DNA of 64,000 nt from Rhodoferax aquaticus (GTDB taxonomy: Bacteria; Pseudomonadota; Gammaproteobacteria; Burkholderiales; Burkholderiaceae_C), in NCBI RefSeq assembly GCF_006974105.1, contig NZ_CP036282.1, positions 62,001 to 126,000 of the forward strand, in the 5' to 3' direction. Position 1 is the stretch's first letter. Every line of letters begins with the position of its first letter. This document shows positions 14,259-61,424 of this stretch, one piece after another. The notes beneath the pieces are model-generated. The model had not been told where the DNA came from. It was given only the letters and a program-made list of their open reading frames with translations, and did no database searches. The position numbers and the translations under genes were made by a program.

Positions 14259-14885
14259 ATGAACAAAGCCGCTGAAGGCCCCAAGGGCCTCATTCGCCAA
14301 ACGAATGAGGCCCTGATACTTTCTGCCGCCGAAAAGGTGTTTGCCCGCGCTGGATTCGCGGGCGCCACCATGGCCAACATTGCCGAAGCCAGTGGCTTGC
14401 CCAAAGCCAATTTGCACTACTACTTTGGCTCTAAAGATGTGCTGTACCGCGCCGTGTTGGCGCGCATTTTGGAAGACTGGTTGGTGCCCACACATGGCAT
14501 CACCTTGGAGGCGGAACCCCGTGCCGCCATAGAGCAATACATACGCGCCAAGATGGCCTTGTCGGCCCAGCGGCCCGATGGGTCCAAAGTGTTTGCCAAC
14601 GAACTCTTGCACGGCGCCCCCGTGATCAAGCAACTGCTGGCCACCGAGCTGCGCCGTATGGTGCAAGAAAAAGCCGCCGTGGTGCAAGCCTGGGTCAACG
14701 CCGGGCGCATGGCCCCTGTGGACAGCGTGCACCTCTTCTTCACCATCTGGGCCGCCACCCAAACCTACGCCGACTTCGACGTGCAGGTAAGCGCCGTCCT
14801 CGACACCGACACCCTACAAGCCCCCGACTACACCCGAGCCACCGAACATGTGGTGTCCCTGATCTTGCGAGGGTGTGGGTTGTAA
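14259..14885 (+). CDS. TetR-family regulator, RutR-like
   Basis: 208 residues. The N-terminal helix-turn-helix is textbook TetR (ILSAAEKVFARAGFAGATMA, IAEASGLPKANLHYYFGSKD). The C-terminal part (FANELLHGAPVIKQLLATEL, FFTIWAATQTYADFDVQVSA) resembles the RutR/YcdC ligand domain, which in E. coli binds uracil and thymine. It follows the binding-protein gene by 36 bases with no terminator, so it is probably cotranscribed and autoregulating through the operator at 10506-10521. RutR identity is inferred, not proven. Confidence 0.85.
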   Translation: MNKAAEGPKGLIRQTNEALILSAAEKVFARAGFAGATMANIAEASGLPKANLHYYFGSKDVLYRAVLARILEDWLVPTHGITLEAEPRAAIEQYIRAKMALSAQRPDGSKVFANELLHGAPVIKQLLATELRRMVQEKAAVVQAWVNAGRMAPVDSVHLFFTIWAATQTYADFDVQVSAVLDTDTLQAPDYTRATEHVVSLILRGCGL

Positions 14886-19766: not shown

Positions 19767-22736
19767 TCAGCGCCCTCCATCACCCACCAGAGCGTAAGGG
19801 GCCCAAAAGGCGGGGTGGGCGTATTTGGGGTTTGCCATCACTTTGAGCATGGCTTGGCGCAGGCTCTCGGCCTTGGGCTCTTTGGGGTTGGCGGCGTAGT
19901 GGGCGAAGGTGCTGGTCGTGAGCAGCTTGGCGGACTCGCTTTCAACTGCCCAGTGTGTGACCAGCAAACTGCGGCTGCCCGCGTAGAAAAAACCACGGGC
20001 CAAGCCGCTCAAGGCTTCTTCCGCCTTGCCATCCGCTGCCGCAGTGTTGCAGGCTGACAGCACCACCCAATCCGCGTTGAGCTTGAGCGACAGCACGTCT
20101 TCCAAGGTGAGCAACGGTGCCAGTGGGTTCTGGGCTTCTGCCCCGGTGGCAGCCAAGGCTAAAGCCGGTTGCGTGAGCTTGGGCAAGTCACCTGCCATAA
20201 GGCCATGGGTAGCGAAGGCGATGACGCGTTTGTTTTGCAATTGGCCACTTTGGCTAGCCGCCAACACGCTCTCGCGCGTAGCCCGCGCGCCCAAGTACAC
20301 ATCGCTGCCCGGGTTGGCTTTGAGCGTTTTGGCAATGGCCAGCAGCTCATCGCGCGTCTCGGGGAGTGCAGGTATATCGGCATAGCGCAGCCCTGAAGCG
20401 TTGGGCTTGGCCAAGGCGTCGAGGTCGAGAGCCAGGTCATTGGCGCTGTTGCTAGCAGTGGATTGGCTGCGCAGGGTGGTTTGGCCAGTGGCTGCGCTGG
20501 CCTGCATGCGAAACGCTGGGTCGCCCCAGGCCACAAAGGATGGGTCCGCGTTCTTGGTTTGACTTACGGTTTTAAGGGCGAGCCAGGCGGACAGGCTGGG
20601 CACTTGGGCAATGGCTGCATCACGAATCAACCAAGGTGCTTTGCTGTCAAAGCCACCGCCCGCGCGGGTGTGCAAGAGACCGAGGGGAATTTGGCTCAAA
20701 GCGCCACCTGCCGCCACGATGAGCTGCGTTTTGCCGCGCCAGGCGGGCGCTACCGGTGCCAACAAGGTGTCGTAGAGCTGAAAGGCGGCATCTCCATCAA
20801 ACCGGGTACCCGCGTTGCCAGGCGTTCCAAAGTCCAGCTGCTGGCGCAAGCGGTTGACCAATGCCTTCACCGTGTCGGCACCCATGTCGGCGCGCACAAA
20901 GGCCGCCGGGCGGTCTGCACTCACGGCCCACACGTAGACTGCCTGCGGGGTGGGCAGGAGCAACAGCACGGCCTGTTTGCTATCGAGCTTGCTTGCGATC
21001 TCTTGCACCGTGGGTGGCACGGGGTGCACCAAGCGGTCGTACTCCGGCATGGCGGTTTTGATGTCGGCTTGCAGCTGTTGCCGGTCTTTTTCAAGGGCAG
21101 CGATTTTGTCGCGAGTCTCGGAAAGTGCTTGCCCTGCGTCTTGGCTCAACAGGGTGCGCAGGCCTGAAATTTCCAGCTTGATGTCTTGCTCGCGCCGCAC
21201 CAGCTGCACCAGTGCGGGTGTGCGCGCTGCGGCGCGCACCGCGGCGTCATTCAACGCGTCTTGCACCACACCGCCACGCACCCAGTCAGCAGCGCCCATG
21301 GCCTGGGTGGCGTCTTCGCCGGGTGTGAGTGCCAAGGCGTCCAAGTAGGCCGCGAAAACAATCTCACGGTATTCTTTGCGCAGGCCTACGTTTTCCAGAT
21401 TGTCGGCATTGGCGGGGAGCATATAGGCCCGCACCGCCGACTTCAGCAGAGGCAAGGCGGCTACTTGGTTGTCGCTTCCACCCGCACGCCACAGCGCCGC
21501 ACCCTGCAAGCCTTGCGCCTGCGTGGTGAAGAAGTGTTGTTCTCCTAGATTGGCTTGGTTGAATTTGACGGAACGGGCAAAGAAAACCGCTGCCTTTGCA
21601 TACTGTTGATTGCCGAAATACAAGTAACCGTTGTCTGTGTTGAGCCCAGTTTTGCCCTGTAGCTTAGGGTTGGCTTGTTCCAGTTGGTCTAGACCTGTTC
21701 GTAGCGCGAAGGCGTCTTTCCAGCGGCCCTGTGCACTGAGGCTATTCATCAGGTCTCGCGAGATTTGTGCGCGCTCCACACTGGCCTCTGGTACGCCTAG
21801 CTTTGCTCGCACAGCATCTGCTTTGCGGTACAACTGCTCCGCGAGGGCAAACTCGCGCTGTGAAAAACGTAGGTTCGCTGCTGTACGGTAGATGCGGCTC
21901 AGGAAATCCGGCGGCAATTGATGACGGCTTGAAAACTCCACCAGCTCTTTGAGCGCTGTTTCTGCATCGCCCAAACGCCCAGCCTCACGATAAGCTCCCA
22001 GCTTTCTTTCCAATGCATTGATCACCGACTGAAAGGCATAAAGCTCCTTAAGTCGCCCGGGGTCGTTGGCCGCTTGCACCAGCTTTAACTCTTGGCGTGC
22101 CAAATGGGCGGCTTGCTCCGCAGCTTCAATCGCTTTTTGGGGCTGCCCTTTGTACGACTCTAGGCGTGAGGTGCATTCCTGCATTTTTCCTTGTGCACGC
22201 GTGAGTAAGCGCTGATCCTTGCCTTTGGCGGGCGCTAGTTCGAGCACGCGCAAGAGTTCGCGCGAGTCCATGAGGGTCTTGCTTGCTCCCTCCAAATTGC
22301 TTTGCAGCAACAACTCGCATCCCAACAGAGCGGCGGAAAAAGCGCCATGCACGGGGCTAAAGAGCACTATGGCCTGGCGCATGAGGTCATTGCCCTCTTG
22401 ATTGGCGTCGCCGCGGCTGTAGAGCGCTAAGGCTAAGTTGTGTTTGTAGGTGGCATTGTTCGGCAAGGCACGCACGGCTTCTCGCATGACCACTTCATAG
22501 GCAGCCGAGTCTGCCAATCGCTTTGCTGCGTTGATCTTGACATCGATATACATCGAGAGCGTGTCGGCATTTTTTGTCACGGGAAGGGGTTGGGCCAATC
22601 GGTAGCGCAAGTTGGCTGTCTCTTCCGAGGTCAAGGCTTTGAACGCGCCTGCAATATCGTCAGACTGCGCCAGCACTGGCAAGGCACACCCGCAGAGCAT
22701 GGCCAGCGTGGCGATGAATCGCAAAAAATGTCCCAC
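19767..22736 (-). CDS. Exported TPR-CHAT caspase-like protein 1
   Basis: About 989 residues from a GTG preceded by AGGGGA. An ATG at 22811 would add 25 residues but lacks a ribosome-binding site and buries the signal peptide (LRFIATLAMLCGCALPVLAQ). The first two thirds are helical TPR-like repeats (AVRALPNNATYKHNLALALY, EAGRLGDAETALKELVEFSS), with a coiled coil near 530-580 (LSETRDKIAALEKDRQQLQA). The C-terminal CHAT domain, a caspase-fold cysteine peptidase, has its His in IAFATHGLMAGD and its Cys in WVVLSACNTAAADG, 145 and 93 residues before the end. It is divergent from the lipoprotein-OmpA-CHASE2-metacaspase run and paralogous to the CHAT gene that closes the cluster. Periplasmic location is inferred. 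Confidence 0.88.
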   Translation of the reverse strand: MGHFLRFIATLAMLCGCALPVLAQSDDIAGAFKALTSEETANLRYRLAQPLPVTKNADTLSMYIDVKINAAKRLADSAAYEVVMREAVRALPNNATYKHNLALALYSRGDANQEGNDLMRQAIVLFSPVHGAFSAALLGCELLLQSNLEGASKTLMDSRELLRVLELAPAKGKDQRLLTRAQGKMQECTSRLESYKGQPQKAIEAAEQAAHLARQELKLVQAANDPGRLKELYAFQSVINALERKLGAYREAGRLGDAETALKELVEFSSRHQLPPDFLSRIYRTAANLRFSQREFALAEQLYRKADAVRAKLGVPEASVERAQISRDLMNSLSAQGRWKDAFALRTGLDQLEQANPKLQGKTGLNTDNGYLYFGNQQYAKAAVFFARSVKFNQANLGEQHFFTTQAQGLQGAALWRAGGSDNQVAALPLLKSAVRAYMLPANADNLENVGLRKEYREIVFAAYLDALALTPGEDATQAMGAADWVRGGVVQDALNDAAVRAAARTPALVQLVRREQDIKLEISGLRTLLSQDAGQALSETRDKIAALEKDRQQLQADIKTAMPEYDRLVHPVPPTVQEIASKLDSKQAVLLLLPTPQAVYVWAVSADRPAAFVRADMGADTVKALVNRLRQQLDFGTPGNAGTRFDGDAAFQLYDTLLAPVAPAWRGKTQLIVAAGGALSQIPLGLLHTRAGGGFDSKAPWLIRDAAIAQVPSLSAWLALKTVSQTKNADPSFVAWGDPAFRMQASAATGQTTLRSQSTASNSANDLALDLDALAKPNASGLRYADIPALPETRDELLAIAKTLKANPGSDVYLGARATRESVLAASQSGQLQNKRVIAFATHGLMAGDLPKLTQPALALAATGAEAQNPLAPLLTLEDVLSLKLNADWVVLSACNTAAADGKAEEALSGLARGFFYAGSRSLLVTHWAVESESAKLLTTSTFAHYAANPKEPKAESLRQAMLKVMANPKYAHPAFWAPYALVGDGGR

Positions 22737-22825
22737 CCAAAAGTCCCCCTGAAATAATGATGGCGAGCTTAGTGCATCAGGCTTCACATGAACGCTACGT
22801 GGCCCGCGCATAATTTAACGGCTAA

Positions 22826-22844
22826 GCGTGTGTAATACACACGC
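22826..22844. promoter_or_regulatory. Perfect 19-bp palindrome between divergent cluster genes
   Basis: Arms GCGTGTGTA and TACACACGC around one central A. It lies 90 bases upstream of the CHAT GTG and 94 bases upstream of the lipoprotein ATG, the position expected of an operator serving both directions. No T-run follows in either direction, so an intrinsic terminator is unlikely. Confidence 0.5.
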
Positions 22845-22937
22845 CTCGCTATTGGAGCATGGCCGCTTCACCGTTAGACTGCGGCCACCCAGTGGGTGGG
22901 CCCAGTGCCCTCACGCAAACCTAGGAACCCCTAAGTA

Positions 22938-23438
22938 ATGAAACACTTCTCTGTGCCCATGTTGGCGACCACACTGCTCTTGGCGGCTTCCCTCACGGCC
23001 TGCGAAACCCAGCCTGTCGCACCTAGCGCGGCAGTTGCAGCTAAGCCCGAAGTCGCGTTTGTAGATTTGCAAGGCTTTGACCGTGACCTGTCGGGCGCGC
23101 TAGCCGCCAAGTTGCCCAAGGTGGACGTGGCGTTCTACGACCGCATTGCCCCCAGTGCTTTGCCTGAGCGGCTGCATCATTGGATGGCCTCTGTGGAGGC
23201 CGGTGGCGGCACCGTGAAGGTGACCCCTCCCCCCGGTAGCGTCACGCCTAAAGACCCGTTTTTGTTGATCAGTGCGATCAGTGCGGTATGGAACGCCAGC
23301 AAGATGGTCAATGCCGCGGCAATCAACGCCCAATACAAGCCCGCACAAGCCTACGATGCGCAGATCGTGTTGAAGGCAGACCCCCAAGGGGTCTCCGTGG
23401 TTGACAAAATTGTGTTTGTGCAGCGTCCAAGCAAGTAG
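22938..23438 (+). CDS. Outer-membrane-type lipoprotein of unknown function
   Basis: 166 residues. The signal sequence ends in a good lipobox (LTAC, Cys22) followed by a flexible Ala/Pro stretch. The residue after Cys is Glu rather than Asp, so outer-membrane sorting is expected. The folded part includes VAFVDLQGFDRDLSGALAAK and ends DAQIVLKADPQGVSVVDKIV. No family recognised. First gene of the same-strand run; the OmpA gene follows after 7 bases. Confidence 0.8.
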   Translation: MKHFSVPMLATTLLLAASLTACETQPVAPSAAVAAKPEVAFVDLQGFDRDLSGALAAKLPKVDVAFYDRIAPSALPERLHHWMASVEAGGGTVKVTPPPGSVTPKDPFLLISAISAVWNASKMVNAAAINAQYKPAQAYDAQIVLKADPQGVSVVDKIVFVQRPSK

Positions 23439-23445
23439 GTCTGCC

Positions 23446-23964
23446 ATGCGTCTCACTGCCCTATTTTTAGCCGTATTGCTGTGTGCCTCAGGAGGCGCAT
23501 CGGCACAAGTAGCCACGCCCACTGCTGAGCAAATGGTGCAGCAGCTCAAAACCCCGCCACGCCTGCGCAGCTTGCGCAACTTGGCCGTTGAGGCAACTGG
23601 CGGCGCGCAAGCGCAAGCCCCTGAGCGTCCGTCGCTCTCGCTGTTGATTCAGTTTGACTTCAACTCCGCCCGTGTGCGGCCCCAAAGCCAACAAGCGTTG
23701 CTGAACTTATCGCAGGCGCTCTTAACGCCTGAGCTGGCCAGTAGCCGTTTTGCAGTGGAAGGGCACACCGATGCCAAAGGCAATGAGGACTACAACCTCA
23801 AACTCAGCGCCCAGCGTGCCCAAGCCGTGGCCGACTTCCTCAAGGCCCGTGGCGTGACCGAGGAGCGTTTGGTGGCCGCTGGCAAAGGGGCCACCGAGTT
23901 GGCCAATAGCGAGTCCCCCTATGCGCCAGAGAACCGGCGCGTGCGCATCGTCAACCTGAACTGA
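23446..23964 (+). CDS. OmpA-family peptidoglycan-binding protein
   Basis: 172 residues. Signal peptide MRLTALFLAVLLCASGGASA, a short linker, then a C-terminal OmpA domain from about residue 65 (IQFDFNSARVRPQSQQALLN, EGHTDAKGNEDYNLKLSAQR, APENRRVRIVNLN). The Asp and Arg that bind diaminopimelate are conserved (HTDAKG, LSAQRA). It has no beta-barrel, so it is a periplasmic cell-wall anchor. It lies between a lipoprotein and a CHASE2 sensor, suggesting the system is attached to the envelope. Confidence 0.9.
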   Translation: MRLTALFLAVLLCASGGASAQVATPTAEQMVQQLKTPPRLRSLRNLAVEATGGAQAQAPERPSLSLLIQFDFNSARVRPQSQQALLNLSQALLTPELASSRFAVEGHTDAKGNEDYNLKLSAQRAQAVADFLKARGVTEERLVAAGKGATELANSESPYAPENRRVRIVNLN

Positions 23965-24020
23965 GCCTTGCACTTGCCAAGCTTCGTGCGGTTCGCACCT
24001 CGGTTGTGAGCACCTAAGGT

Positions 24021-25760
24021 ATGCACCTGTGGGACCGCTTTAGCGAGGCCATTGGCGCCCTGCCTGCACGGCGGGTCACGTGGGGCTTGGTGCTGGTGTT
24101 TGCGCTGTGGGTGTTGTTGGATGTGTTGGTGCTCAAGTTCACAGGTGGGCTCACCCAGTCCACCTATGACGCCATGGTGCGTGCCCGTGTGCTGGCACCT
24201 GCGCCAGACCCTCGCATTGTGGTGGTGGATATTGACGAAGCCTCATTGGCACGCATGGGCAAAGAGTTCGGCCGCTGGCCTTGGCCGCGAGATACCTTGG
24301 CCACTGTGCTGGAGCACATTGAGCGCCAGCAACCCGCAGCGGTGGTGTGGGATGTGTTGTTTTCCGATGCTGACCGCCTGAGTCCGGGGGGAGACGCGGC
24401 CTTCAATGAGGCCGCCAAGCGCAGCGTACATAGCCACTTCTCGGTGGTGCGCCTGCCACAGAGCAATGATGCGGACAGCCAAATCGGCAAAGTCGCCTTG
24501 CCCAGCCTGTGGCTAGCGCCCCATTTGCAAGCCCTGCTTGCGGAGCCTCGGAGCGCTCCACAGCCGTCGCTGCCTGCAGCCACTGTGGCCCTCATTCCCC
24601 CAGGGTTGCCGGCGGTAGCCAATGGGCGCTTGGGCTACAACAACGGCTATGTGGATGATGATGGGGTGCTGCGTCGCTACCGCTACTTCGAGCGACTGAG
24701 CGACGGCAGCGCCATCCAGTCCCTCCCCTTGAGTGTGCTGTCTGCTATAGATTCAGAAGCGGCTGGTGCATATCTGGTGGGCGCTAGCGAAAGAATAGGC
24801 GGCAAAGACGACCTCATCGTCTGGCCCAAGCGCGCGAACGCCTATCCCCACCTTGCGTTTGCCGATGTGTTCATGCAGGCAGAAGGCGAGCCGCCTTGGG
24901 TGCCGGTCCCCTCGTTGGCGGGCAAGGTGGTCATCATCGGGGCTACTGCACCGAGCCTGCACGATATCCACCCCACACCTTTGTCCAATATGCATGCCGG
25001 GGTGGACGCGTTGGCCGTGGTGGTGGACAACGCCATGAACCAGCGCCAACTGCGTGAGTTGCCACGCGGTTTGCAAGCGGCGCTGGCCATTGCCTTGTGT
25101 GTGGCCTTGGCCTTGTGGGTGCAGTTCAAGAGTGCGGCCTCTTTGGCACCGGCCCTGCTGGCCTTGCCGGCGGCTTTGCTGGGCGTCAGTTACCTGAGTT
25201 TGAATGGCTCCCCCGTGTTTGTTGACCTGCATTTGTCCGCAGCCCTAGGGCTGGTGTTTTTGGCGGTGCTGCGCTTTTGGAGTGCATTGCGGCGGGTGCA
25301 TTGGTGCCTACCACCGCAGGGCGATGTGCTGGCGGTATGGCCCCTGCGACGCGATGCGGCTTGGCTGGAAGAGCCCTTGGACCGTCTGATCGATGCGGTA
25401 GAGCGCCACGCACCCGAATGCCGTGTGCTGGTGTGCGACTCCAACGTGGTCTGGCCCGCGACCTTGCGCTGGCCCGAACTCGCGCGCTTTGCGGCCGTGG
25501 TGGGCCCACCCGATGCGCTGCAGCGTGCGCTGCCTGCACTGACTCGCCAAACCCAGCGCCTGGTGCAGCAGGCAGGCCCGCTCTCGCTCTTGCCAATGGT
25601 TCCCGTCCACGCGGGTGGCGAAGCCGCCCTTTTGGCGGGCCGGCGCCTGCAACTGGCCCAGTACGCGTACCAAACATGGGCGACGTTCGGTGCGCTCGCC
25701 CCTCAAGCCCACGCAGTGCCGGCACCTTCAACACACAACAACCCAGGGAAAACCACATGA
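24021..25760 (+). CDS. CHASE2-domain membrane sensor
   Basis: 579 residues. One N-terminal helix (VTWGLVLVFALWVLLDVLVL) precedes a periplasmic CHASE2 domain to about 330 (RIVVVDIDEASLARMGKEFG, RWPWPRD, PAAVVWDVLFSDADRLS, GKVVIIGATAPSLHDIHPTP). Three helices follow (AALAIALCVALALWVQFKSA, LALPAALLGVSYL, ALGLVFLAVLRFW). The cytoplasmic tail of about 170 residues matches no kinase, cyclase or HD output that I know (GDVLAVWPLRRDAAWLEEPL). CHASE2 proteins usually end in such outputs, so this one may signal through partners. Its stop overlaps the metacaspase start (ATGA). A dispersed-repeat-like stretch lies inside the gene near 24743. Confidence 0.9.
   Translation: MHLWDRFSEAIGALPARRVTWGLVLVFALWVLLDVLVLKFTGGLTQSTYDAMVRARVLAPAPDPRIVVVDIDEASLARMGKEFGRWPWPRDTLATVLEHIERQQPAAVVWDVLFSDADRLSPGGDAAFNEAAKRSVHSHFSVVRLPQSNDADSQIGKVALPSLWLAPHLQALLAEPRSAPQPSLPAATVALIPPGLPAVANGRLGYNNGYVDDDGVLRRYRYFERLSDGSAIQSLPLSVLSAIDSEAAGAYLVGASERIGGKDDLIVWPKRANAYPHLAFADVFMQAEGEPPWVPVPSLAGKVVIIGATAPSLHDIHPTPLSNMHAGVDALAVVVDNAMNQRQLRELPRGLQAALAIALCVALALWVQFKSAASLAPALLALPAALLGVSYLSLNGSPVFVDLHLSAALGLVFLAVLRFWSALRRVHWCLPPQGDVLAVWPLRRDAAWLEEPLDRLIDAVERHAPECRVLVCDSNVVWPATLRWPELARFAAVVGPPDALQRALPALTRQTQRLVQQAGPLSLLPMVPVHAGGEAALLAGRRLQLAQYAYQTWATFGALAPQAHAVPAPSTHNNPGKTT
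24743..24789 (-). repeat. Dispersed-repeat-like segment inside the CHASE2 gene
   Basis: GCTATAGATTCAGAAG, then GCTGGTGCATAT and GGTGGGCGCTAG, resembles the inverted repeat family. It stays in frame and encodes AIDSEAAGAYLVGASE in the CHASE2 domain. Similarity is partial; chance is possible. Confidence 0.35.
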
Positions 25761-27706
25761 CTCAAGCTCACAAGCGCCGATGCCCGAAAACCCTCTTGCG
25801 AACCCTAGGCGCCGTGGCCTTGGGCACGGTACTGGCGACGTCAGCCAGCGCCCAGGTAGCGTCCAGCCCAGGGGCCGGGCAGGCGCTCACTGCAGTCAGG
25901 GCCACAGAGCTGCGCGCAGACAAGCTGGGTTCAGCCGCCGTATTGCGCAATGTGCCTGCCGGCACCAGTTTGCGCTTGCTCAGCGTGGAGGGTGGGTGGG
26001 CTTTGGTAGAAGCCAGCGCGGTCGACAAAGCCGCAGCCAAACTGACCGGCTGGGTGCGCGCCAGTGCTATCGACCTGCAGGCGGGCAGCTCTGCAGCGTC
26101 TGGCATGCGCAGTGGCCGCGAAAGCGCTGGCAACACCGCATTGACCTTGGGGGTGCGCAGCTTGCCACCCCGGGTGAATCGGCACGCGCTGATCATTGGG
26201 GTGAGCCGCTACGCAGACACCAACACGCCGCCCTTGCCTGGCGCGCGCGTGGACAAAGAGTCGGCCACCCAAATGGCACAGGCCATGCAAGTGCCCGCAG
26301 GCAATATTCAGTACCTGCAAGATGAGCAGGCGACGGGCGACAACATCCGCAAAGCCCTGCGCGAGCTCACCGACAAGGTGCAAGACGGTGACCGGGTATT
26401 CATCCACTTTTCAGGCCATGGCACCCGCTACAAAGATGCGACGGCCGGAGGCTGCGTAGAAGCGCTGCTGGCCTACGACGGGGGCCAAAGCGGTACGCTC
26501 ACCAACCACGAGATGGCAGAGCTGCTCAAGCCCATGACCAACAAGACCGACAAGTTGTTTGTGATGTACGACGCCTGCCACTCGGGCGGCGTGGTGCAAG
26601 CGGCCTCTAGCGTGCGCACGCGCGGGTTCACAAACGCCAATGACGATGGCCTGCTGCGCCCCAAGTTCGCCAACATTTCCGACGAGTGCGGCCGCCCGGT
26701 CAACGTCAAAACCCGCAACTTGGTGGTAGAGGCACAAAGCAAAGGGGCATTGCCCCAAGACATCATCCACGTCAGTGCTTCGCGTGACAACGAGGTGAGC
26801 TTTGACGATGAGCTCAAAGGCGGCCTGGCCACCCAGTACATGCGCGACTGCATGCTGCGCGATGCCAAAGACGTGGACAACTCAGGCGCCATCACCATGG
26901 ACGAGATTCGCATGTGCGCCCAAGAAAAAATCAACAAGCGCATGGCCAATGACGCCAACTACAAGGCCCATAACCTGATGCTCAACGGCAATGCCGACTT
27001 TGTGCCTGCCTGGTTCAGCCAAGTGAGTGCTGCGCCCATGGTGAGCTTGCCCACGCCCACGCCCACGCCGCCCGCGCAAGCCCTGGTAGCGGCCCCAGCC
27101 AAGCCTGTGAGCGCCGCACCTGCTGTGCCCGTGCCCGCCCCAACACCTGCCCCGGTCGTGGTGGCCAAGCCCCTCACGGGTGAACAGGCACTGCGCCAGA
27201 TGTGGGACCAGCGCGATGCGAAGCGCAATGTGCGGGTAAGCCTAGGCAAGAGCACGCTGACCATAGGCAAAGATGCCTTGGAATTCAGCGTGCAGTCTGA
27301 CCGTGCGGGCTATGTGTACGTGGCCTTGGCTGGTTCTGACAACCAGTCCGTGTACCTGTTGTTCCCCAACGATTTGGACGGCAACAACACAATTGAAGCG
27401 GGGCAAAAGCTCACGCTGCCCCGTGCCAACTGGCGTGTATCGGCTGGGGGGCCGGTTGGCACAGACCATGTGATGGTGATGGTCACAGACGCACCGCGCG
27501 AAATCAGTACGCTGGCTGCCAACAAGGCAGGCCCTTTTGTGAGTTCGCTCAATGACGCCACTGGCCGCGCCCAACTAGGTGCTTTGATGAGCACTTCACG
27601 CCTAGGCACCAGCCCGGTGTGCCAGAGTGTCACGGCTCGGCAGCAGAATACCGCCTGTTCTGACGCCTACGGCGCCGCAATGGTTTCAGTGGAGGAAGTC
27701 AAATGA
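25757..27706 (+). CDS. Exported metacaspase-like protease (SH3-caspase-DUF4384)
   Basis: 649 residues from the ATG overlapping the CHASE2 stop. Signal peptide ends near residue 32 (LATSASAQ). Then a bacterial SH3-like domain (about 42-110, ELRADKLGSAAVLRNVPAGT); a C14 caspase domain (about 140-410) with His221 in FSGHG and Cys274 in YDACHSGG; an EF-hand-type loop at 372-383 (DVDNSGAITMDE) inside the caspase domain; a Pro-rich linker (TPTPTPPAQ); and DUF4384 (about 475-590, FSVQSDRAGYVYVALAGSDN, VYLLFPNDLDGNNTI). The dyad is intact, so proteolysis is plausible. The EF-hand suggests calcium dependence, as in many metacaspases. The next gene again overlaps by ATGA, indicating coupled translation. 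Confidence 0.92.
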   Translation: MTQAHKRRCPKTLLRTLGAVALGTVLATSASAQVASSPGAGQALTAVRATELRADKLGSAAVLRNVPAGTSLRLLSVEGGWALVEASAVDKAAAKLTGWVRASAIDLQAGSSAASGMRSGRESAGNTALTLGVRSLPPRVNRHALIIGVSRYADTNTPPLPGARVDKESATQMAQAMQVPAGNIQYLQDEQATGDNIRKALRELTDKVQDGDRVFIHFSGHGTRYKDATAGGCVEALLAYDGGQSGTLTNHEMAELLKPMTNKTDKLFVMYDACHSGGVVQAASSVRTRGFTNANDDGLLRPKFANISDECGRPVNVKTRNLVVEAQSKGALPQDIIHVSASRDNEVSFDDELKGGLATQYMRDCMLRDAKDVDNSGAITMDEIRMCAQEKINKRMANDANYKAHNLMLNGNADFVPAWFSQVSAAPMVSLPTPTPTPPAQALVAAPAKPVSAAPAVPVPAPTPAPVVVAKPLTGEQALRQMWDQRDAKRNVRVSLGKSTLTIGKDALEFSVQSDRAGYVYVALAGSDNQSVYLLFPNDLDGNNTIEAGQKLTLPRANWRVSAGGPVGTDHVMVMVTDAPREISTLAANKAGPFVSSLNDATGRAQLGALMSTSRLGTSPVCQSVTARQQNTACSDAYGAAMVSVEEVK

Positions 27707-28212
27707 TGCAAACAAGCGCACGCACCCTGGTTTGGGGTGCTCTGTTTTCTATAGCTGCTTACGCAATACCCGTGGGCGCACAGGGCACTTTGGCACCTGT
27801 TCTTTCTGAAGCATCTGCCGGGTGGCTGGTCACCGCAGCGGAGGCGCAAGCCTACAAGGGCGAGGCGGGATTTGACGAAGCGCCCGGCTTGCGTCCGCGC
27901 TCGGTTATTCCGGTGATTGACATTCTCAAGCCCGAACCTACAGCCGACCTCAAGGTGAAAGCTCCCTTTGCCATTGCGGTGGAGTTCAAGGGCCAAAGCG
28001 ATGCCCAGATCGACCCCTCTACTTTCAAAGTGATGTACGGCGCCTTGAAGATTGACATCACCAGCCGTATCACCAAATACGTGACGGTCAGCAAAGACGG
28101 CTTCACCCTGGACAATGCAAAAATTCCGCCGGGCAAGCACCGCCTGATTCTGCAAATCCAAGATGCCAAGCAGCGTGTGGCGGAGCGCGAATTGCGGGTG
28201 GAGGTGGAGTAG
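27703..28212 (+). CDS. Small exported protein of unknown function, cluster member
   Basis: 169 residues starting within the metacaspase stop. The signal peptide (WGALFSIAAYAIPVGAQG) is partly encoded by a dispersed-repeat copy. The C-terminal hundred residues look like an all-beta Ig-like or CARDB-type fold (LKVKAPFAIAVEFKGQSDAQ, DGFTLDNAKIPPGKHRLILQ, RVAERELRVEVE). That fold call is tentative. Coupling to the metacaspase suggests a partner, substrate or inhibitor, but nothing in the sequence decides which. Confidence 0.75.
   Translation: MMQTSARTLVWGALFSIAAYAIPVGAQGTLAPVLSEASAGWLVTAAEAQAYKGEAGFDEAPGLRPRSVIPVIDILKPEPTADLKVKAPFAIAVEFKGQSDAQIDPSTFKVMYGALKIDITSRITKYVTVSKDGFTLDNAKIPPGKHRLILQIQDAKQRVAERELRVEVE
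27748..27779 (-). repeat. Dispersed repeat copy inside a signal-peptide coding region
   Basis: ATAGCTGCTTACGCAATA then CCCGTGGGCGC on the plus strand closely matches the inverted family core seen at 19591 and 47593. Here it encodes SIAAYAIPVGA, the hydrophobic end of a signal peptide. Confidence 0.6.
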
Positions 28213-28216
28213 CCCT

Positions 28217-28900
28217 ATGCCGCATAGCACCTTCAAGCCGTATTCGGTGGTGAGCTGCCTGGTACTCGCCCTTATGGGTTGGGGTGGGGCCGTAGGCGTG
28301 GCCCATGCAGCACGTGTGGTCGCGGTGCACGGTGTGTTGCACCTAGAGCGGGGCGACAAAGCCCAAACCGTGCTGGCTGGCATGGCGGTGCAAGAGGGCG
28401 ACAGCTTTCGCAGTGAGGGCGAAGCCGAATTACTGATCCGGTTTGATGACGGCGCTCGGATGGTGCTGCGGCCGGGTTCGAACTTGCGGCTGACGACTTT
28501 GCGTGAGCACGGGCCTATGACCAAGCGCCAGAAAACCATGCACATGGTCAAAGGCGGTTTGCGCTTTGTTTCGGGACGTGGTCCTGCGCGCCACCGCGTT
28601 GCCTTTGAAACCGAGACCGCCACCATTGGAATCCGTGGCACCGACATCGAAATCGCGGTGGCTGACGAGGCCGTGGCCGACAACGCCAGTGGTACCTACT
28701 TGCAGGTCAACAGCGGTGCGGCAACCCTGCAAGCGGTAGATGGCACCGTCTTAAGCGTAGACCCCGGCGAGGTAGCCTTTGGCGGCGAGCCAGAGCTCAC
28801 CCCCAAAGACGGCTCAGGCATCAAGCGCCCGGCAGGCCGCAAGCTCTTGGGGGCCATGTTGTTCTTCAAGAAAACGGGCATGGATGCAATGCTGAAATAG
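28217..28900 (+). CDS. Exported FecR-domain protein
   Basis: 227 residues from MPHSTFKPYS. The signal peptide ends GVAHAA, and the mature protein opens directly with a FecR domain (VVAVHGVLHLERGDKAQTVL, EGDSFRSEGEAELLIRFDDG, GLRFVSGRGPARHRVAFETE, ATIGIRGTDIEIAV). Classic FecR is an inner-membrane anti-sigma regulator with a cytoplasmic tail. This one has no membrane helix or sigma factor partner and belongs to the secreted FecR type found with CHASE2 and adenylate-cyclase genes. Last gene of the run, convergent with the second CHAT gene. Confidence 0.88.
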   Translation: MPHSTFKPYSVVSCLVLALMGWGGAVGVAHAARVVAVHGVLHLERGDKAQTVLAGMAVQEGDSFRSEGEAELLIRFDDGARMVLRPGSNLRLTTLREHGPMTKRQKTMHMVKGGLRFVSGRGPARHRVAFETETATIGIRGTDIEIAVADEAVADNASGTYLQVNSGAATLQAVDGTVLSVDPGEVAFGGEPELTPKDGSGIKRPAGRKLLGAMLFFKKTGMDAMLK

Positions 28901-28936
28901 CACATGGGGTCGGGGTGCAAGCACCATGGCTCGCTT

Positions 28937-31927
28937 TCAGCGCCCGCCATCTCCCACCAAGGCGTAGGGCGCCCAAAAAGCCGGGTGGCTATAACGCTTG
29001 TCTGCCATCACACTGAGCATGGCCTGGCGCAAGCTCTCGGCTTTGCGGGCGGTGGCTTGGGTGGCGTAGTGGGTCAGCGTGCCGGTGGTGAGCAACTTTG
29101 CGCTTTCACTTTCGACCGCCCAGTGGGTGACCAGCAGGCTTCTGCTGCCCGCATAGAGGAAGCCCCGCGCCAAGCCACTGAGCGCTTCTTCTCCCTTGCC
29201 ATCGGCACTGGCGGTGTTGCAAGCCGACAGCACCACCCAGTCGGCATTGAGTTTGAGCGTGAGCACGTCGTCCAGGGTCAGCAGTGCGTCAAGGGGATAC
29301 TGCGCGCTCGCCGCGGTGGCCGCAAGCGCTAAGGCCGGCTGCGTTAACCGTGGTAAGTCGCCTGCCATCAGGCCATGGGTTGCAAATACGATGACTTTTT
29401 TCTTCTGTAGCTCGCCCGCTTTGCTGCTGGCAAGCACGCTTGCCTTGGTGGCCAAGTTACCCAAATGGAGGTCACGTTGGGGGTCGGCTTGCAAGGCCTT
29501 TGCAATCGCCAAGAGTTCGTCGCGTGTTTCTGGGAGTGTGGGTATGTCGGCGTATTGCCTAGACTCTTTGGCGTCATCCTGATCCAAGTCCACCAGCCGT
29601 ACGTCCCGCGCGTTGGGGTCTGCAGCAGCCAGTGCGTGGGCGTGTGTGCCAAAAACGGGATCTCCCCATGCGACCAATGCGTCGGGGGCCGATGCGACTT
29701 TGGACAACTGTTTCACCGCGAGCCAGGCGCTTAGGCTGGGTACATGGGTGATGGCGGCTTGCTTGATGAGCCACGGTGCGTTGGCGTCCAGTGTCTTCGT
29801 TGGCTTGGTCAGAAGCAGCCCAAAGGGAACTTGCCCTAGGGCGTCACCGGCCGCTACCACCAGATGGCGCTTGTCGGTGAGTGCGGCTTCTACAGGGCGC
29901 AGCAATCGTTCGTACAAGGTGCTGGCCGCAGCCGAGTTGAATGGCAATACGACATTGCCCATGGTGGCAAAGTCAAGTGTCCCCCGCAGGTCGTTGACCA
30001 GCTTGCGTAAGGTTGTGCGTGGCAGCACCACACGCGCGCTAGCCCCCGGGCCATCGCGTGTGAGTGCCCATACGTAAACGGCCTGTTCTGTGGGCAGCAG
30101 CATGAGCAAAGCTTCGTCTTCAGCCAAAGCAGCTTTGAGGTCATTGACCCCGGGGGGCATGGGGCGCACCAAGCGGGCGTAGTCGGGAAAACGGGCCTGA
30201 ATCTGGATCTGCAACTGCTTGTTGCTGATCTCCAGATCGCTTACTTGAATACGCATTTTCGACTGCACGTCGGCTGGCGCCAATGCATCATCGAGCAAGA
30301 TTTTGCGCAAGGCCTCAATGGTGTTTTTAGCGTCTTGCGCGCTGCGCACCAGCTCGGCCAAGGCGGGCTCCACTGCGGCAGAACGCAACGCCGCATCGGC
30401 AACAGCTTCTTGCACCGCTCCGCCGCGCACCCAGTCTGCGGGCCCAACCAGGTCCATGCGGTTCACCGTGGGGCTAGCAAAGGTCGCATCCAAAGCAGTT
30501 GCGAAGATCAGCGCGCGAATGTCAGCGCGCAGTCCAACGGCTTCGTAGCTGAAGTTGTCGGGTTGCATGTAGTCGCGTATGGCGTCTTGCATCAAGGTCA
30601 GAGCCAGTGGCCGTTGCTTGGGGTCACCGCCCTTCCACAAAGCCACGCCTTGCAGGCCTTTTGCCTGTGCCACGTAAAAGTGGCCTTGTGGGTAGCGTTT
30701 GCCCTGCTCCAGTGCGACTTGTTCAAACAGGGTTGCGGCCTCGTCCAAGTGCGTGTGACTGCCAAGATAGGTATAGCCGCGTTCTAGAGGCATTTGGAAG
30801 CGCTTGGCCGCTGGTGCATCATTTTGCGCAGCAGCATCCAAGCTGGCGAGCCTATCCAAAGCGTCGCTCCAGCGGTGCTGCCCCAAGAGCGTCGCGATAC
30901 GCATGCGCGCTAGGTTGACCCGCGTGGGACTGCTGGCTACCAGCCCCTGGGTTTGAGCCAGTTGGTCTGCTTGCAGGTAATAACGTTCTGCGGAGACGAA
31001 CTCATGCTGGTCAAAGCGCAGGCTGGCTGCACGTACATAAATTTCATTGAAATAGCGGGGCTCCAAGGCCACTGTTTTTGCCAGCTCCAATTGCTGGCGC
31101 AAACTGCGGTCTGCATCGCCGTAACGCCCTGCGTCTTGCCATGCAATAGTCAACTGGCTCAGCGCCGAGGCCAAGTCACCCGCGGCGTAGCGCACCTCTT
31201 TCTGCAGCTCGTCTTGGGGTAAACGGGTCTCTGCTTTTGCACTTGCAAACCCGTTGCGCCCCACCTCTACGGCAGTAATGGCTAGTCGCAGTGCTGCATC
31301 CTTTCGCCCGTAGTAGCTGTGAATCTCAGAGCCAAGGCGCAGTGCGCGGGATTCGGTGCGCAGCAAGTAGACCGTGTCCAAGCTCACAAGGGTCTTTTGC
31401 TTCTTCAGAAGCGCTATGTTTGCGTTTGCAAGCGCTAGCACGTGAGCCGCTTCTTCTATGCGGCCCGAGTTCTTGAGGTCGCCTACCAAATTCACACGCA
31501 CATGCTCTTGCCGAGGGCCAGGCTTTGTCTGGTTCACCTCTGCAGTGCGCGTACGTAGGCCTTCGTTAATCTCGCCCGCACGCATGAGCTCGATCGCAAA
31601 GTTATTGCGCGGCAGCGTTGCGGGCATCAGCTTTTCCCAGCTGCGATACAACGCTAGCAAAGCTTGTGAGTCCCCCAGTTTTTCTCCGGCAACTTGTTTG
31701 CTGCGCAACAGGGACTTGAGCGCGCCGTCGGCAAGGTCTGTGGGCAATGGGGCCGCCAATAGGGCCCGCAGCGAGGACGCTTCTTCGGGGCTCACCTGCT
31801 TGAGCGCACTGCCTAGTTCGTCTTGCGCTGTAGCGTGACCGCCCATTGCCGCAAGCCATAACGTGAAGCAAAACGCCAATGCCTTGGTCGAGGGCGCGCA
31901 AATGTGCATACGAGTAACCCGTGCCAT
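28937..31927 (-). CDS. Exported TPR-CHAT caspase-like protein 2
   Basis: 996 residues. Signal peptide near 16-35 (LAFCFTLWLAAMGGHATAQ). An N-terminal helical TPR-type region (RSWEKLMPATLPRNNFAIEL, SAERYYLQADQLAQTQGL) is followed by a C-terminal CHAT domain with His851 (IVFATHGLMAGD) and Cys903 (WVVLSACNTASADG). The last 146 residues align without a gap to the other CHAT protein of the cluster, and both end FWAPYALVGDGGR, so they are paralogs. The TPR halves have diverged, suggesting different partners or signals with the same catalytic output. It is convergent with the FecR gene, 36 bases apart. Confidence 0.9.
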   Translation of the reverse strand: MARVTRMHICAPSTKALAFCFTLWLAAMGGHATAQDELGSALKQVSPEEASSLRALLAAPLPTDLADGALKSLLRSKQVAGEKLGDSQALLALYRSWEKLMPATLPRNNFAIELMRAGEINEGLRTRTAEVNQTKPGPRQEHVRVNLVGDLKNSGRIEEAAHVLALANANIALLKKQKTLVSLDTVYLLRTESRALRLGSEIHSYYGRKDAALRLAITAVEVGRNGFASAKAETRLPQDELQKEVRYAAGDLASALSQLTIAWQDAGRYGDADRSLRQQLELAKTVALEPRYFNEIYVRAASLRFDQHEFVSAERYYLQADQLAQTQGLVASSPTRVNLARMRIATLLGQHRWSDALDRLASLDAAAQNDAPAAKRFQMPLERGYTYLGSHTHLDEAATLFEQVALEQGKRYPQGHFYVAQAKGLQGVALWKGGDPKQRPLALTLMQDAIRDYMQPDNFSYEAVGLRADIRALIFATALDATFASPTVNRMDLVGPADWVRGGAVQEAVADAALRSAAVEPALAELVRSAQDAKNTIEALRKILLDDALAPADVQSKMRIQVSDLEISNKQLQIQIQARFPDYARLVRPMPPGVNDLKAALAEDEALLMLLPTEQAVYVWALTRDGPGASARVVLPRTTLRKLVNDLRGTLDFATMGNVVLPFNSAAASTLYERLLRPVEAALTDKRHLVVAAGDALGQVPFGLLLTKPTKTLDANAPWLIKQAAITHVPSLSAWLAVKQLSKVASAPDALVAWGDPVFGTHAHALAAADPNARDVRLVDLDQDDAKESRQYADIPTLPETRDELLAIAKALQADPQRDLHLGNLATKASVLASSKAGELQKKKVIVFATHGLMAGDLPRLTQPALALAATAASAQYPLDALLTLDDVLTLKLNADWVVLSACNTASADGKGEEALSGLARGFLYAGSRSLLVTHWAVESESAKLLTTGTLTHYATQATARKAESLRQAMLSVMADKRYSHPAFWAPYALVGDGGR

Positions 31928-32079
31928 GGCAATGAGGGCCTAGCGCACTGCACCAGTTGCTTGCCAAATGGCCGATTGCATGCAGAGGCTAGGAGTATGC
32001 GCTAGCGCAATGGCCTTGTGCCTAGGCTTCTAAAGCAGTACAAACCATGCGCATCACCCAGCGATCGATTGGAGGAGCT

Positions 32080-33537
32080 ATGCGACATATAGAGTTGGGA
32101 CGCCGCACCGCCATGGGCGCCGTAGGCCTCGGGTTGGGGGCCGTCTTGGCACCGCAGGCGTTTGCGCAGACACAGCGGCCCACAGATCTCACAGAGCCCA
32201 TGGCTCCCGGCGTGGCTGGTGGGCGCGTCATTGTTATTGGTGCGGGTGTGTCTGGGCTGGCGGCGGCTCAGCGTTTGCGTTCCGCAGGCATGGACGTCTT
32301 GGTCTTGGAGGCCCGTGACCGCATAGGAGGGCGTGTGTTTACCCAAACGCATTGGCAAGGGCCGGCGATAGACCTAGGTGCTTCTTGGATTCACGGCGCT
32401 GGGCCCGCCAACCCGATTGCCAAGCTCGCGCGCCAAATGGGCGCTCGGTTGACGCCGACCAGCGAAGAGCGTGCCGGCGTCTACAGCGGTGATGGCGGTG
32501 AACTTGGCGCGGCGGAGCAGAGGTGGCTCGAATCCATCCGGGCCCAAATCAGAGCCGCGATCGCGCAAGGTGGGCGTGCCCGACGTGATCGCTCGCTGAA
32601 AGCCTTGGTCTACAGCGCTTTGGACTATGACCGCCGTGCGGCTGTGGAGCAGCGCATGATCGACTATGTGCTCAACAGCAGCTATTAGCACGAGTATGGT
32701 GGCGCGGTGGACCAGCTGTCCGCGCAGTGGTTTGACAGTGGTTCATCCTATGACGGTGACGAGTTGCTGTTCCTTGATGGTTACCAGGTCTTGGTCAAGC
32801 ATCTGGCCGCAGGGGTGAATGTCAAGCTTGAGCATGAGGTGACTGCCATCGTGGACCAAGGGTCTGCGGGCGTGAGCGTAGAGACTAAGCAGGGGGTGTT
32901 TACGGCAGCACGCGTGGTCGTGACCCTTCCCTTGGGGGTGTTGAAGTCGGGCAGTGTGCACTTCCAGCCCGCCTTGCCCTTTGGCAAACAGGCGGCCATC
33001 GACGGCCTTGGCGTCGGGGTGCTCAACAAATGCTGCCTTTTGTTCCCGCAAACGTTTTGGGACAGCGAGTTCGATTGGCTCAACTACCTACCCAAGCTAG
33101 GGCAGGGAGGCCAGTGGGCCGAGTGGGTGAGCTTTGCGCGCCCCACCAAGCGCCCGGTGTTGATGGGCTTCAACGCGGCGGACTTTGGCACTGCGATTGA
33201 ACAGTGGGACGACACCGCTATCGTGCAAAGCGCAGTGGGGGCCTTGCAGTCCATGTTCGGGCGAGATATACCTGCCCCCGTGGACGCATTGGTGACCCGC
33301 TGGGCGTCCGATCCCTACGCCCGTGGAGCCTACTCCTGCCATGTGTTGGGTTCGACGCCGACGCAGCGGGATGACTTGGCAAAGAACATCCACGGCCGGC
33401 TGTTCTTTGCGGGGGAAGCGACCGAGCGACAGCACTACCAGACGGTGCATGGTGCTTACCAGTCAGGCTTGCGGGCTGCACAAGAAGTGCTGCTTGCCGG
33501 TGTCGCCACCACCAACAGCAAGCGCACGCGCTCTTAG
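32080..33537 (+). pseudogene. Flavin amine oxidase interrupted by an in-frame amber codon
   Basis: The start with GGAGGAG before it gives a Tat-type signal (GRRTAMGAVGLGLGAVLAPQAF), then the FAD dinucleotide motif VIVIGAGVSGLAAAQRLRSA and RIGGRVFTQT. TAG at 32686-32688 interrupts, then the same frame continues HEYGGAVDQLSAQWFDSGSS through LPLGVLKSG to the C-terminal FAD motif LFFAGEATERQHYQTVHGAY. Homologs usually have a Glu before HEY, so a single GAG to TAG change would explain the stop. No frameshift is seen. It is either a recent nonsense pseudogene, a readthrough case or a sequencing error. Intact, it would oxidise a polyamine or monoamine in the periplasm. Confidence 0.85.
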
Positions 33538-55281: not shown

Positions 55282-55423
55282 CAATATGTGGCTAAAGAAG
55301 TGGCGGGCAGGGTGCAATCCGTGTGCTCCGCGCCCCATGCAAAAAAGCCCGCTGAATCATCGGGCCCCCTCTCAAGCCGTATGGGCCGCGCTATATAGTC
55401 GAAGGCTCAAGGGGAGAACACAC

Positions 55424-58303: not shown

Positions 58304-58335
58304 CGTGTCGCCAAAACCCGAAAATGGCGACACGT
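58303..58335. repeat. 11-bp inverted repeat after the helicase gene
   Basis: Arms ACGTGTCGCCA and TGGCGACACGT, loop AAACCCGAAAA, starting at the last base of the helicase stop codon. No T-run follows, so it is not a standard terminator. The GTGTCG/CGACAC core recurs in two inverted repeats inside the yhcG gene of the same operon. Confidence 0.7.
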
Positions 58336-58437
58336 TGTCGTCTCATGTCGCTGCTGCGTACAGGTTCTGCACACCACGTTAGCCACGCCATACTTGGGCC
58401 ACACCCCGCAAACCCCTTATCGCACCTATAAGAAACC

Positions 58438-60336: not shown

Positions 60337-60344
60337 AAGGGGCC

Positions 60345-61424
60345 ATGATGAACCCCATGCAGACATCAGGCGACGCCGCTCCCGTTTTGTTGAACGATGT
60401 GCGCCAGCTCATTGAGCAGGCGCGTGCGCATGTGGCTAGTGCGGCCAACAGTGTGCTTACGGTGCTGTACTGGCAGGTGGGTGAACGCATTCGCCGTGAG
60501 GTGTTGGGCGAAACCCGTGCCGATTATGGCGAGCAGATTGTGTCGACGCTGTCGACACAATTGGTACAGGCCTATGGCCGTGGGTTTTCTGAAAAAAGCC
60601 TTCGGCGCATGATCCAGTTCGCAGAGGTGTTTGCTGATGCGCAAATTGTCGCGACACTGTCGCGACAATTGAGCTGGAGCCATTTCATTGAAATCCTGCC
60701 GCTCAAGCAGCCGCTGGAGCGTGAGTTTTATGCCGAGATGTGCCGCATCGAACGTTGGAGCGTGCGCACCTTGCGCGAGCGCATTGGCAGCCAGTTATAT
60801 CTGCGCTCCAGCATTGCCAAAAAGCCGGAAGCCGCTATTGCCCAAGAACTGAGCCATTTGCGCGAAGGCGGGCAGATGACGCCCGATCTGGTGTTTCGCG
60901 ACCCCTACATGCTGGACTTTTTGGGCCTGCCTGAGGGCTACAGCGAGCGCGATTTGGAAAGTGCCATCTTGCGTGAGATGGAGCGCTTTTTGCTGGAGCT
61001 GGGCGCGGGCTTTACCTTTGTGGCGCGGCAAAAGCGCATCAGCGTGGGGGCGGACGATTTCTATCTGGACTTGTTGTTCTACCACCGGCACCTGCGCCGC
61101 TTGGTGGCGGTGGAGCTGAAGCTGGAGAAGTTTGCGCCCGCGCACAAAGGGCAGATGGAGTTGTACCTGCGTTGGCTGGACCAGAACGACCGCGCCGAGG
61201 GCGAGGCTTCGCCCATTGGCCTGATTTTGTGCGCCAGTGCTGACCGCGAGCAGGTGGAGCTGATGGATTTGGACAGCGCCAACATTCGGGTGGCGCAATA
61301 CCTGCACGCCTTGCCCGATGTGCAGGTGCTGCAGGCGCAGTTGCACCGCGTGGTGCAACTAGCGCGAGAGCGGCAGGCCCGGCAAGTGCTGGACGCGCTG
61401 CCCGACAACAAGGAACAGACATGA
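60345..61424 (+). CDS. YhcG/DUF1016 PD-(D/E)xK nuclease-like protein
   Basis: 359 residues from MMNPMQTSGD after AAAGGGG. N-terminal DUF1016 domain (NSVLTVLYWQVGERIRREVL, FSEKSLRRMIQFAEVFADAQ, SRQLSWSHFIEILPLK). The C-terminal PD-(D/E)xK nuclease fold has the metal-binding Asp in DDFYLDLLFYH and the ELK in RLVAVELKLEKF. The family often accompanies restriction systems; the nuclease residues look intact. The coding sequence contains two perfect inverted repeats. The stop overlaps the start of the type III restriction gene by ATGA. Confidence 0.9.
   Translation: MMNPMQTSGDAAPVLLNDVRQLIEQARAHVASAANSVLTVLYWQVGERIRREVLGETRADYGEQIVSTLSTQLVQAYGRGFSEKSLRRMIQFAEVFADAQIVATLSRQLSWSHFIEILPLKQPLEREFYAEMCRIERWSVRTLRERIGSQLYLRSSIAKKPEAAIAQELSHLREGGQMTPDLVFRDPYMLDFLGLPEGYSERDLESAILREMERFLLELGAGFTFVARQKRISVGADDFYLDLLFYHRHLRRLVAVELKLEKFAPAHKGQMELYLRWLDQNDRAEGEASPIGLILCASADREQVELMDLDSANIRVAQYLHALPDVQVLQAQLHRVVQLARERQARQVLDALPDNKEQT
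60537..60561. repeat. Perfect inverted repeat inside yhcG, copy 1
   Basis: Arms ATTGTGTCGAC and GTCGACACAAT around GCT, encoding QIVSTLSTQL. Also a tandem repeat of GTCGAC. Confidence 0.8.
60644..60670. repeat. Perfect inverted repeat inside yhcG, copy 2
   Basis: Arms AATTGTCGCGAC and GTCGCGACAATT around ACT, encoding QIVATLSRQL. Same architecture as the repeat 83 bases upstream, with GTCGCGAC in place of GTCGAC. Confidence 0.8.

Follow-up and report, generated by a model that had tools for sequence, protein, structure and literature searches.

Background

Work on bacterial caspase-fold proteases has dealt mostly with enzymes of the cytoplasm. According to the available parts of the reports on the metacaspase–CHASE2 fusion of Trichodesmium erythraeum, the caspase is N-terminal and predicted to be cytoplasmic (PMC3501461, PMC2853523), and a model excerpted from a further source has ligand binding to CHASE2 activate the caspase in the cytosol (PMC7475262). 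The ligands of CHASE2 are given as unknown in the accessible portion of the report on BiofilmReg, an operon of Burkholderia, which records no orthologues of that operon in Comamonadaceae (PMC5192318). Here we describe a locus of Rhodoferax aquaticus in which a CHASE2 membrane protein is encoded directly beside a caspase that is predicted to be exported. The locus lies in a 64,000-nucleotide stretch, the window, of a 4.74-Mb single-contig genome (NZ_CP036282.1, positions 62,001 to 126,000; coordinates below are those of the window). It comprises six plus-strand genes in the order LIPO-OmpA-CHASE2-C14-IG-FecR (22938–28900) and two minus-strand genes for TPR-CHAT proteins, CHAT1 being divergent and upstream of the six-gene run and CHAT2 convergent and downstream.

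A recurrent OmpA–CHASE2–caspase core

The original prediction, made from the letters of the window, placed all eight genes in one envelope cluster built around caspase-like proteases. The gene positions and domains stand as first read, with open reading frames (ORFs) and Pfam in agreement, and the ATGA overlaps between CHASE2 and C14 (25757) and between C14 and IG (27703) are real. Intergenic distances along the six-gene run are 7, 56, −4, −4 and 4 bases. Since both CHAT genes lie on the strand opposite this run, the eight genes are not one transcription unit, and the single cluster gives way to a six-gene plus-strand operon accompanied by two opposite-strand CHAT genes. Scans for sigma-70 promoters and terminators over 22600–32100 performed no better than on shuffled sequence, so it is spacing and strand that support the operon limits; the divergent region between CHAT1 and LIPO likely carries promoters for both CHAT1 and the operon. 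Gene calls are longest ORFs, among which small or frameshifted genes can be missed.

A scan with the C14 alignment of one genome per species (84,980 species) yielded 62 loci, including three same-genome pairs (L046/L047, L063/L087 and L075/L081); L016 and L017, which are identical contigs to L049 and L045, were not counted again. By taxon label, 37 loci belong to Comamonadaceae or its genera (Rhodoferax, Polaromonas, Limnohabitans, Curvibacter, Ramlibacter and Brachymonas), 23 are assigned only to Betaproteobacteria or Burkholderiales, and two carry other labels. In these loci, all picked by C14, the next most frequent families are CHASE2 (48 loci), OmpA (45), LIPO (32), a second class of caspase (31), IG (30) and CHAT (17, including two weak or fragmentary cases). 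All six belong to the system, and the commonest unrelated family, the ABC ATPases, reaches only 9 loci; the association is therefore more than chance. The same picture is obtained when only loci with 8 kb or more on each side of C14 are kept (25, the other 37 having been dropped): CHASE2 is found in 21, OmpA in 20, LIPO in 16, the second caspase in 15, IG in 13, CHAT in 9 and FecR in 4, and CHASE2 and OmpA both lie within 8 kb of C14 in 19. Of the 55 loci whose sequence extends far enough to show it, 43 have CHASE2 immediately upstream of C14 and 3 more have it upstream with one gene between. The recurrent part of the system is thus OmpA-CHASE2-C14 with the lipoprotein and the small exported protein.

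The exact eight-gene set occurs in 0 of the 62 loci, 37 of which are too short on one side for full exclusion, and eight genes as a fixed unit were ruled out; the closest locus is L026 of Rhodoferax bucti, with seven genes. FecR is clear in 5/62 loci, with the L039 copy encoded on the opposite strand, and L068 gives a weak match. At the family level the system is patchy, since C14-model matches at E 1e-20 occur in 52 of 250 genomes, 13 of them reaching 1e-200, and many of these matches cover just the DUF4384 half. LIPO marks the system: of its 11 matches, found in 10 of the 250 genomes, 10 have a C14 match no more than 7 kb away.

CHASE2 is paired with SH3–caspase or SH3–M48

A CHASE2 alignment search of 399 genomes of the order gave matches in 255, and 40 loci were read, mainly those with the best CHASE2 scores. 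In 32 of the 40, from 11 other families of the order, the genes directly after CHASE2 encode first a small exported SH3 protein and then an M48 protease, a fraction that is not a prevalence because of how the loci were chosen. This three-gene operon is newly found here; our literature search gave no description of it. An intact cyclase is present on CHASE2 in 10 of the 32 (L144-L150 and L152-L154). LIPO and IG families were not detected in the 40 order-level loci, and the OmpA family was detected in 2.

The N-terminus of C14 is homologous to this SH3 partner, including the linker that follows it (hhalign 99%, E 2.4e-18; two control profiles scored near zero), and the SH3 profile matches 53/62 caspase-type loci at E 1e-5. 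M48 was found in 0/62 caspase-type loci and is absent from the window. A maximum-likelihood tree built from 82 CHASE2 regions joins the 47 caspase-type rows and L118 in one group (support 100/99), and L118 itself carries a caspase with SH3. The simplest account of these sequences is that the SH3 partner fused to a caspase and displaced the M48 protease, and the evidence fits a protease swap behind one sensor.

The nearest CHASE2 in the tree is that of Rhodoferax bucti (81% identity over 417 columns). L151 sits on a very long branch and its place is unsure. L054, labelled Cytophagales, groups with Comamonadaceae rows and is possibly a misbinned contig.

Predicted export and catalytic motifs

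Export was assessed with a signal-peptide heuristic and by eye. The original prediction of export agrees with the result: the soluble members have predicted signal peptides, the heuristic having a high background rate, and LIPO carries a lipobox. Among relatives the heuristic is positive for 49/53 C14, 20/21 CHAT, 39/43 second-class caspase, 31/31 LIPO, 45/46 OmpA, 30/30 IG and 5/5 FecR proteins.

The assignment of C14 and CHAT as caspase-fold peptidases is likewise borne out, with His-Cys motifs intact, and both look like active proteases. In C14 of the window the dyad motifs are HFSGHG and DACHSG, and the caspase domain scores 86.8 bits against a Pfam cut-off of 21.4. The DAC motif is kept in 62/62 relatives and GHG in 61/62, the miss being a contig-truncated gene; the strict pattern SGHG...DACHSG is present in 59/62, the other three comprising the truncated gene, DACYSG and DACHSC. 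The CHAT domains of the window score 159 and 158 bits against a cut-off of 24 and have both His and Cys motifs, and 21/22 CHAT ORFs in relatives fit both patterns, the exception being a 218-aa fragment. In the second caspase class, GHG...DACR is found in 39/46 members.

Features of the individual proteins

Table 1. Features of the locus in window coordinates, with the evidence for each assignment
Feature	Description	Coordinates	Strand	Evidence
CHAT1	Exported TPR-CHAT, 1014 aa (longest ORF)	19767..22811	-	Pfam CHAT 2.2e-46; TPR_12 below cut-off
CHAT1/operon intergenic	Divergent intergenic region	22737..22937	.	Position only; no consensus promoter above chance
LIPO	Uncharacterised lipoprotein family, 166 aa	22938..23438	+	Lipobox LTA-C; no Pfam/NCBIfam
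OMPA	Exported OmpA-type peptidoglycan-binding domain protein, 172 aa	23446..23964	+	Pfam OmpA 1.3e-20
CHASE2	CHASE2 membrane protein	24021..25760	+	Pfam CHASE2 3.2e-46, no other domain
C14	Exported SH3 + metacaspase-type caspase + DUF4384, 649 aa	25757..27706	+	Pfam C14 2.3e-24, DUF4384 1.3e-15; SH3_3 below cut-off
IG	Small exported protein, 169 aa	27703..28212	+	No Pfam or PDB match
FECR	Exported FecR-domain protein, 227 aa	28217..28900	+	Pfam FecR 8.2e-9
CHAT2	Exported TPR-CHAT paralogue, 996 aa	28937..31927	-	Pfam CHAT 4.5e-46; signal peptide ends ATA-QDEL

The AF2 model of the CHASE2 protein (pLDDT 91.5, pTM 0.86) contains four helices long enough to span the membrane. From the basic residues that precede the first helix and follow the last, the CHASE2 domain is assigned to the periplasm and residues ~436-558 to the cytoplasm. 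This C-terminal domain has a ferredoxin-like arrangement in the model, and cyclases are not among the structural matches listed. No cyclase, kinase or other output domain was found in the protein with Pfam, the C-terminal fragment being unmatched even at E 1. A degenerate cyclase was rejected as a firm assignment for the C-terminus: hhalign probabilities were 97-99% at first, but 9/35 of the out-of-family sequences proved to be intact cyclases, and 15-19% was obtained once these were removed.

LIPO folds in its AF2 model (pLDDT 80.6) into a beta-alpha-beta-alpha-beta unit followed by two helices and two final strands. It has 155 homologues, and among the 120 listed every named one is a hypothetical protein. 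OMPA has Asp109 and Arg124, at a spacing that we take to be that of the diaminopimelate-binding pair of OmpA-type domains. For IG, an Ig-like domain is a guess from its sequence. The likely true start of CHAT1 is the GTG at 22736, which gives a signal peptide ending VLA-QSDD by the heuristic; its motifs are FATHG and SACNT, and it is 45% identical to CHAT2.

Accessory exported caspase-fold proteases

CHAT is variable in both number and position. Matches above 300 bits amount to 20 copies in 15 loci, 17 of them on the operon strand. In L059 and L065 CHAT lies between OmpA and CHASE2, with a four-base overlap with OmpA in L059, and in Limnohabitans up to three CHAT genes occur in a row (L051). 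Across the 250 family genomes, 6 of 23 CHAT matches have a C14 match within 10 kb, and CHAT as a dedicated partner was ruled out on this count. The proposed co-occurrence of the named genes therefore survives in part: it stands for CHASE2, OmpA and C14, whereas FecR is infrequent and CHAT is an accessory.

Clustering assigns 46 proteins from 31 loci, fragments among them, to the second exported caspase class, which is absent from this window; L059 has four in tandem. The E-values of six representatives against Pfam C14 range from 1.5e-26 to 5.6e-43. At least one CHAT (>300 bits) or second-class caspase (>150 bits) is present in 20/25 full-context loci. Mutual exclusion between the two was considered and not seen, as 4/25 full-context loci have both and 5 have neither. 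The exported caspase-fold proteins vary in number and kind, and the sensor and scaffold are constant; the conserved system exceeds its first description in both size and modularity.

Two further arrangements were observed. In L161 (4949-12394) exported CHAT, C14 and second-class caspase genes accompany an ECF-type sigma factor and a putative anti-sigma gene (by eye); no CHASE2 match was found in the L161 group, which we read as a differently regulated version. In another genome, a CHAT ORF overlaps a 477-aa FecR-like ORF (L164 7856-12254).

A proposed periplasmic sensor–protease system and its alternatives

With moderate confidence, we propose that the locus encodes a periplasmic caspase system that is associated with the wall, gated by CHASE2 and used for regulated proteolysis in the envelope. 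Export, catalytic motifs and linkage are predictions from the sequence; the gating, the substrates and the purpose are inferences. By strong prediction, the polytopic inner-membrane protein holds its CHASE2 domain in the periplasm, where the SH3-caspase could dock onto it, and OmpA and LIPO would hold the parts near the wall and the outer membrane. A ligand, or stress on the membrane or wall, may alter the CHASE2–caspase contact and thereby activate the caspase. The active enzyme would cleave, probably after Arg or Lys, either accessory exported caspases, in a short cascade, or proteins of the envelope close to the wall; CHAT and the further caspases would be downstream proteases or substrates. 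The output would be regulated envelope proteolysis, occupying the niche of the exported M48 metalloprotease in CHASE2-SH3-M48 operons. A broader scheme, which we put forward only tentatively, has one CHASE2 receptor act through a shared SH3 adaptor on interchangeable exported proteases (M48 in many families, SH3-caspase in Comamonadaceae) and, through these, on variable CHAT or caspase zymogens near the wall.

Several observations weigh against this proposal. Its CHASE2–caspase contact, substrate and ligand are all suppositions, and in the published CHASE2–metacaspase fusion, so far as the available text describes it, the caspase is on the opposite, cytoplasmic side (PMC3501461). The signal-peptide heuristic is also positive for 129/314 other genes of the same loci, so it lends support to export and is not proof. 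C14 lacks a CHASE2 match in 4/25 full-context loci (L082, L083, L084 and L087), which means that the caspase can exist without CHASE2. The LIPO profile was built from C14-linked copies. As many as 17/23 CHAT matches lie more than 10 kb from a C14 match or on another contig, and the host itself has a third, solitary exported TPR-CHAT gene (L158 8939-11878). The CHASE2 tree carries a long-branch warning near the caspase-type group and is midpoint-rooted, and the direction of the M48–caspase change is consequently not fixed. The wall-anchored periplasmic sensor–protease reading of the original prediction nevertheless has the CHASE2/OmpA/C14 linkage, the predicted export and the intact motifs in its favor, and an envelope function is the better guess.

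An unlikely alternative is inside-out control, in which the cytoplasmic C-terminal domain of CHASE2 would bind a nucleotide or protein and the periplasmic part would release or hold the caspase, which would trim surface proteins such as adhesins, in the manner of LapD-LapG. The domain would here be a degenerate class III cyclase turned receptor, and a degenerate cyclase at the C-terminus is a possibility.

A degradative or nutritional role is rather improbable. The exported proteases are many and variable in number, as might be expected of general periplasmic or secreted peptidases for which CHASE2 would only regulate expression or provide an anchor. However, control is suggested by the shared SH3 domain and by the overlap of C14 with a membrane-sensor gene; the OmpA protein would retain the complex at the wall, and caspase-fold proteases are usually narrow in specificity and regulated.

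Regulated cell death or anti-phage defense, in which envelope attack would trigger the exported caspases and the envelope would be destroyed, is improbable. Caspase-fold proteases do act in bacterial defense, as the accessible description of Craspase states, and a CHASE2-triggered caspase death model is outlined for cyanobacteria in the portion available of one report (PMC7475262). In addition, C14 matches a caspase model of the PADLOC defense library at 5e-20, and the accessory caspases vary in tandem copy number. Against this, every soluble member is predicted to be exported, and no nuclease or lysis domain was found in the eight proteins with Pfam. A PADLOC search of the eight for a known anti-phage system gave no set match: besides C14 only OmpA has a match, to ZorB, through a common domain. 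The nearest defense-type genes found are ~23 kb away (55286-61424), with part of the window ORFs scanned. C14 relatives are nearly absent from plasmid records (one partial match, 23% of query) and phage records (one weak match), and the cell-death role that had been suggested finds little support.

An accidental run of envelope genes, to which the inconstancy of FecR and CHAT might point, is hardly credible as an account of the locus: for the OmpA-CHASE2-C14 core it is refuted by the 62 loci, drawn from many species and several genera, in which the system recurs.

If the proposal of a CHASE2-gated periplasmic caspase is true, the operon exports up to three kinds of caspase-fold protease and couples one of them to a membrane sensor, which would make the periplasm a site of caspase signaling. 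CHASE2 would gain a protease partner, and M48 versus caspase behind the same sensor would provide a clean comparison for what the sensor controls.

Neighboring genes

A gene for a VgrG-type type VI secretion spike lies at 14-1705. A TetR-like regulator (by eye) at 14259-14885 has a very similar counterpart directly upstream of LIPO in L016 (3069-3707); in the window, ~8 kb including a GGDEF-EAL gene and CHAT1 separates the regulator from LIPO. This arrangement suggests an old chromosomal site to which insertions were added later. An FAD-dependent amine oxidase-like gene (by eye) at 32047-33537 consists of two same-frame ORFs, 32047-32688 and 32707-33537, with a stop between them. At 55286-61424, a SNF2 helicase related to DrmD (5e-191), a type III-like DNA methyltransferase and a DUF1016/YhcG nuclease occur in a row and are likely a restriction or DISARM-like defense cluster.

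Comparison with known systems

The expectation that no described system has this exact set agrees with the literature, where no match was found. In a search that covered few subscription journals, no CHASE2-SH3-caspase operon, CHASE2-SH3-M48 operon, exported CHAT/caspase array or periplasmic caspase was found. The CHASE2-SH3-M48 operons share with this locus a CHASE2 membrane protein, an exported homologous SH3 partner and a protease directly downstream; they differ in that the protease is an M48 metalloprotease and in the cyclase that some of them carry on CHASE2.

In BiofilmReg, as in the present operon, a CHASE2 sensor adjoins an exported FecR-domain protein; however, the available part of the report describes a CHASE2 histidine kinase, a response regulator and LysM on the FecR protein (PMC5192318), none of which is found here by Pfam. 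Prokaryotic metacaspases or orthocaspases share the C14 domain with its His-Cys dyad, and OmpA is recorded in 14 metacaspase operons, with some suspected signal peptides; the accessible text describes neither a CHASE2-SH3-caspase operon nor exported caspase arrays (PMC3501461).

The two CHAT proteins are reminiscent of TPR-CHAT/Csx29 of Craspase in their TPR and CHAT architecture, but Craspase, as partly described, works with crRNA-bound Cas7-11, whereas the CHAT proteins here are predicted to be exported and are encoded next to an envelope operon. HetF of the Anabaena divisome is likewise a CHAT protein at the cell envelope; it combines CHAT, a transmembrane segment and TPR in one protein and interacts with FtsI, and no exported CHAT is described in the part of the report available (PMC8406250).

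In its manner of working, the proposed system resembles LapD-LapG, where, in the excerpted accounts, an inner-membrane receptor controls a periplasmic cysteine protease. The GGDEF/EAL receptor and C93 protease of that pair are not among the Pfam matches of the eight proteins, and the locus is not a member of that system. The Trichodesmium fusion physically ties a CHASE2 receptor to a metacaspase and so offers a precedent for control of a caspase by CHASE2, as is proposed here. It is a single protein, for which the available text describes no OmpA, SH3 or exported caspase, whereas by Pfam CHASE2 and C14-DUF4384 are here on separate polypeptides. By this analogy, the operon of R. aquaticus would be a periplasmic, multi-protein counterpart of the Trichodesmium fusion.

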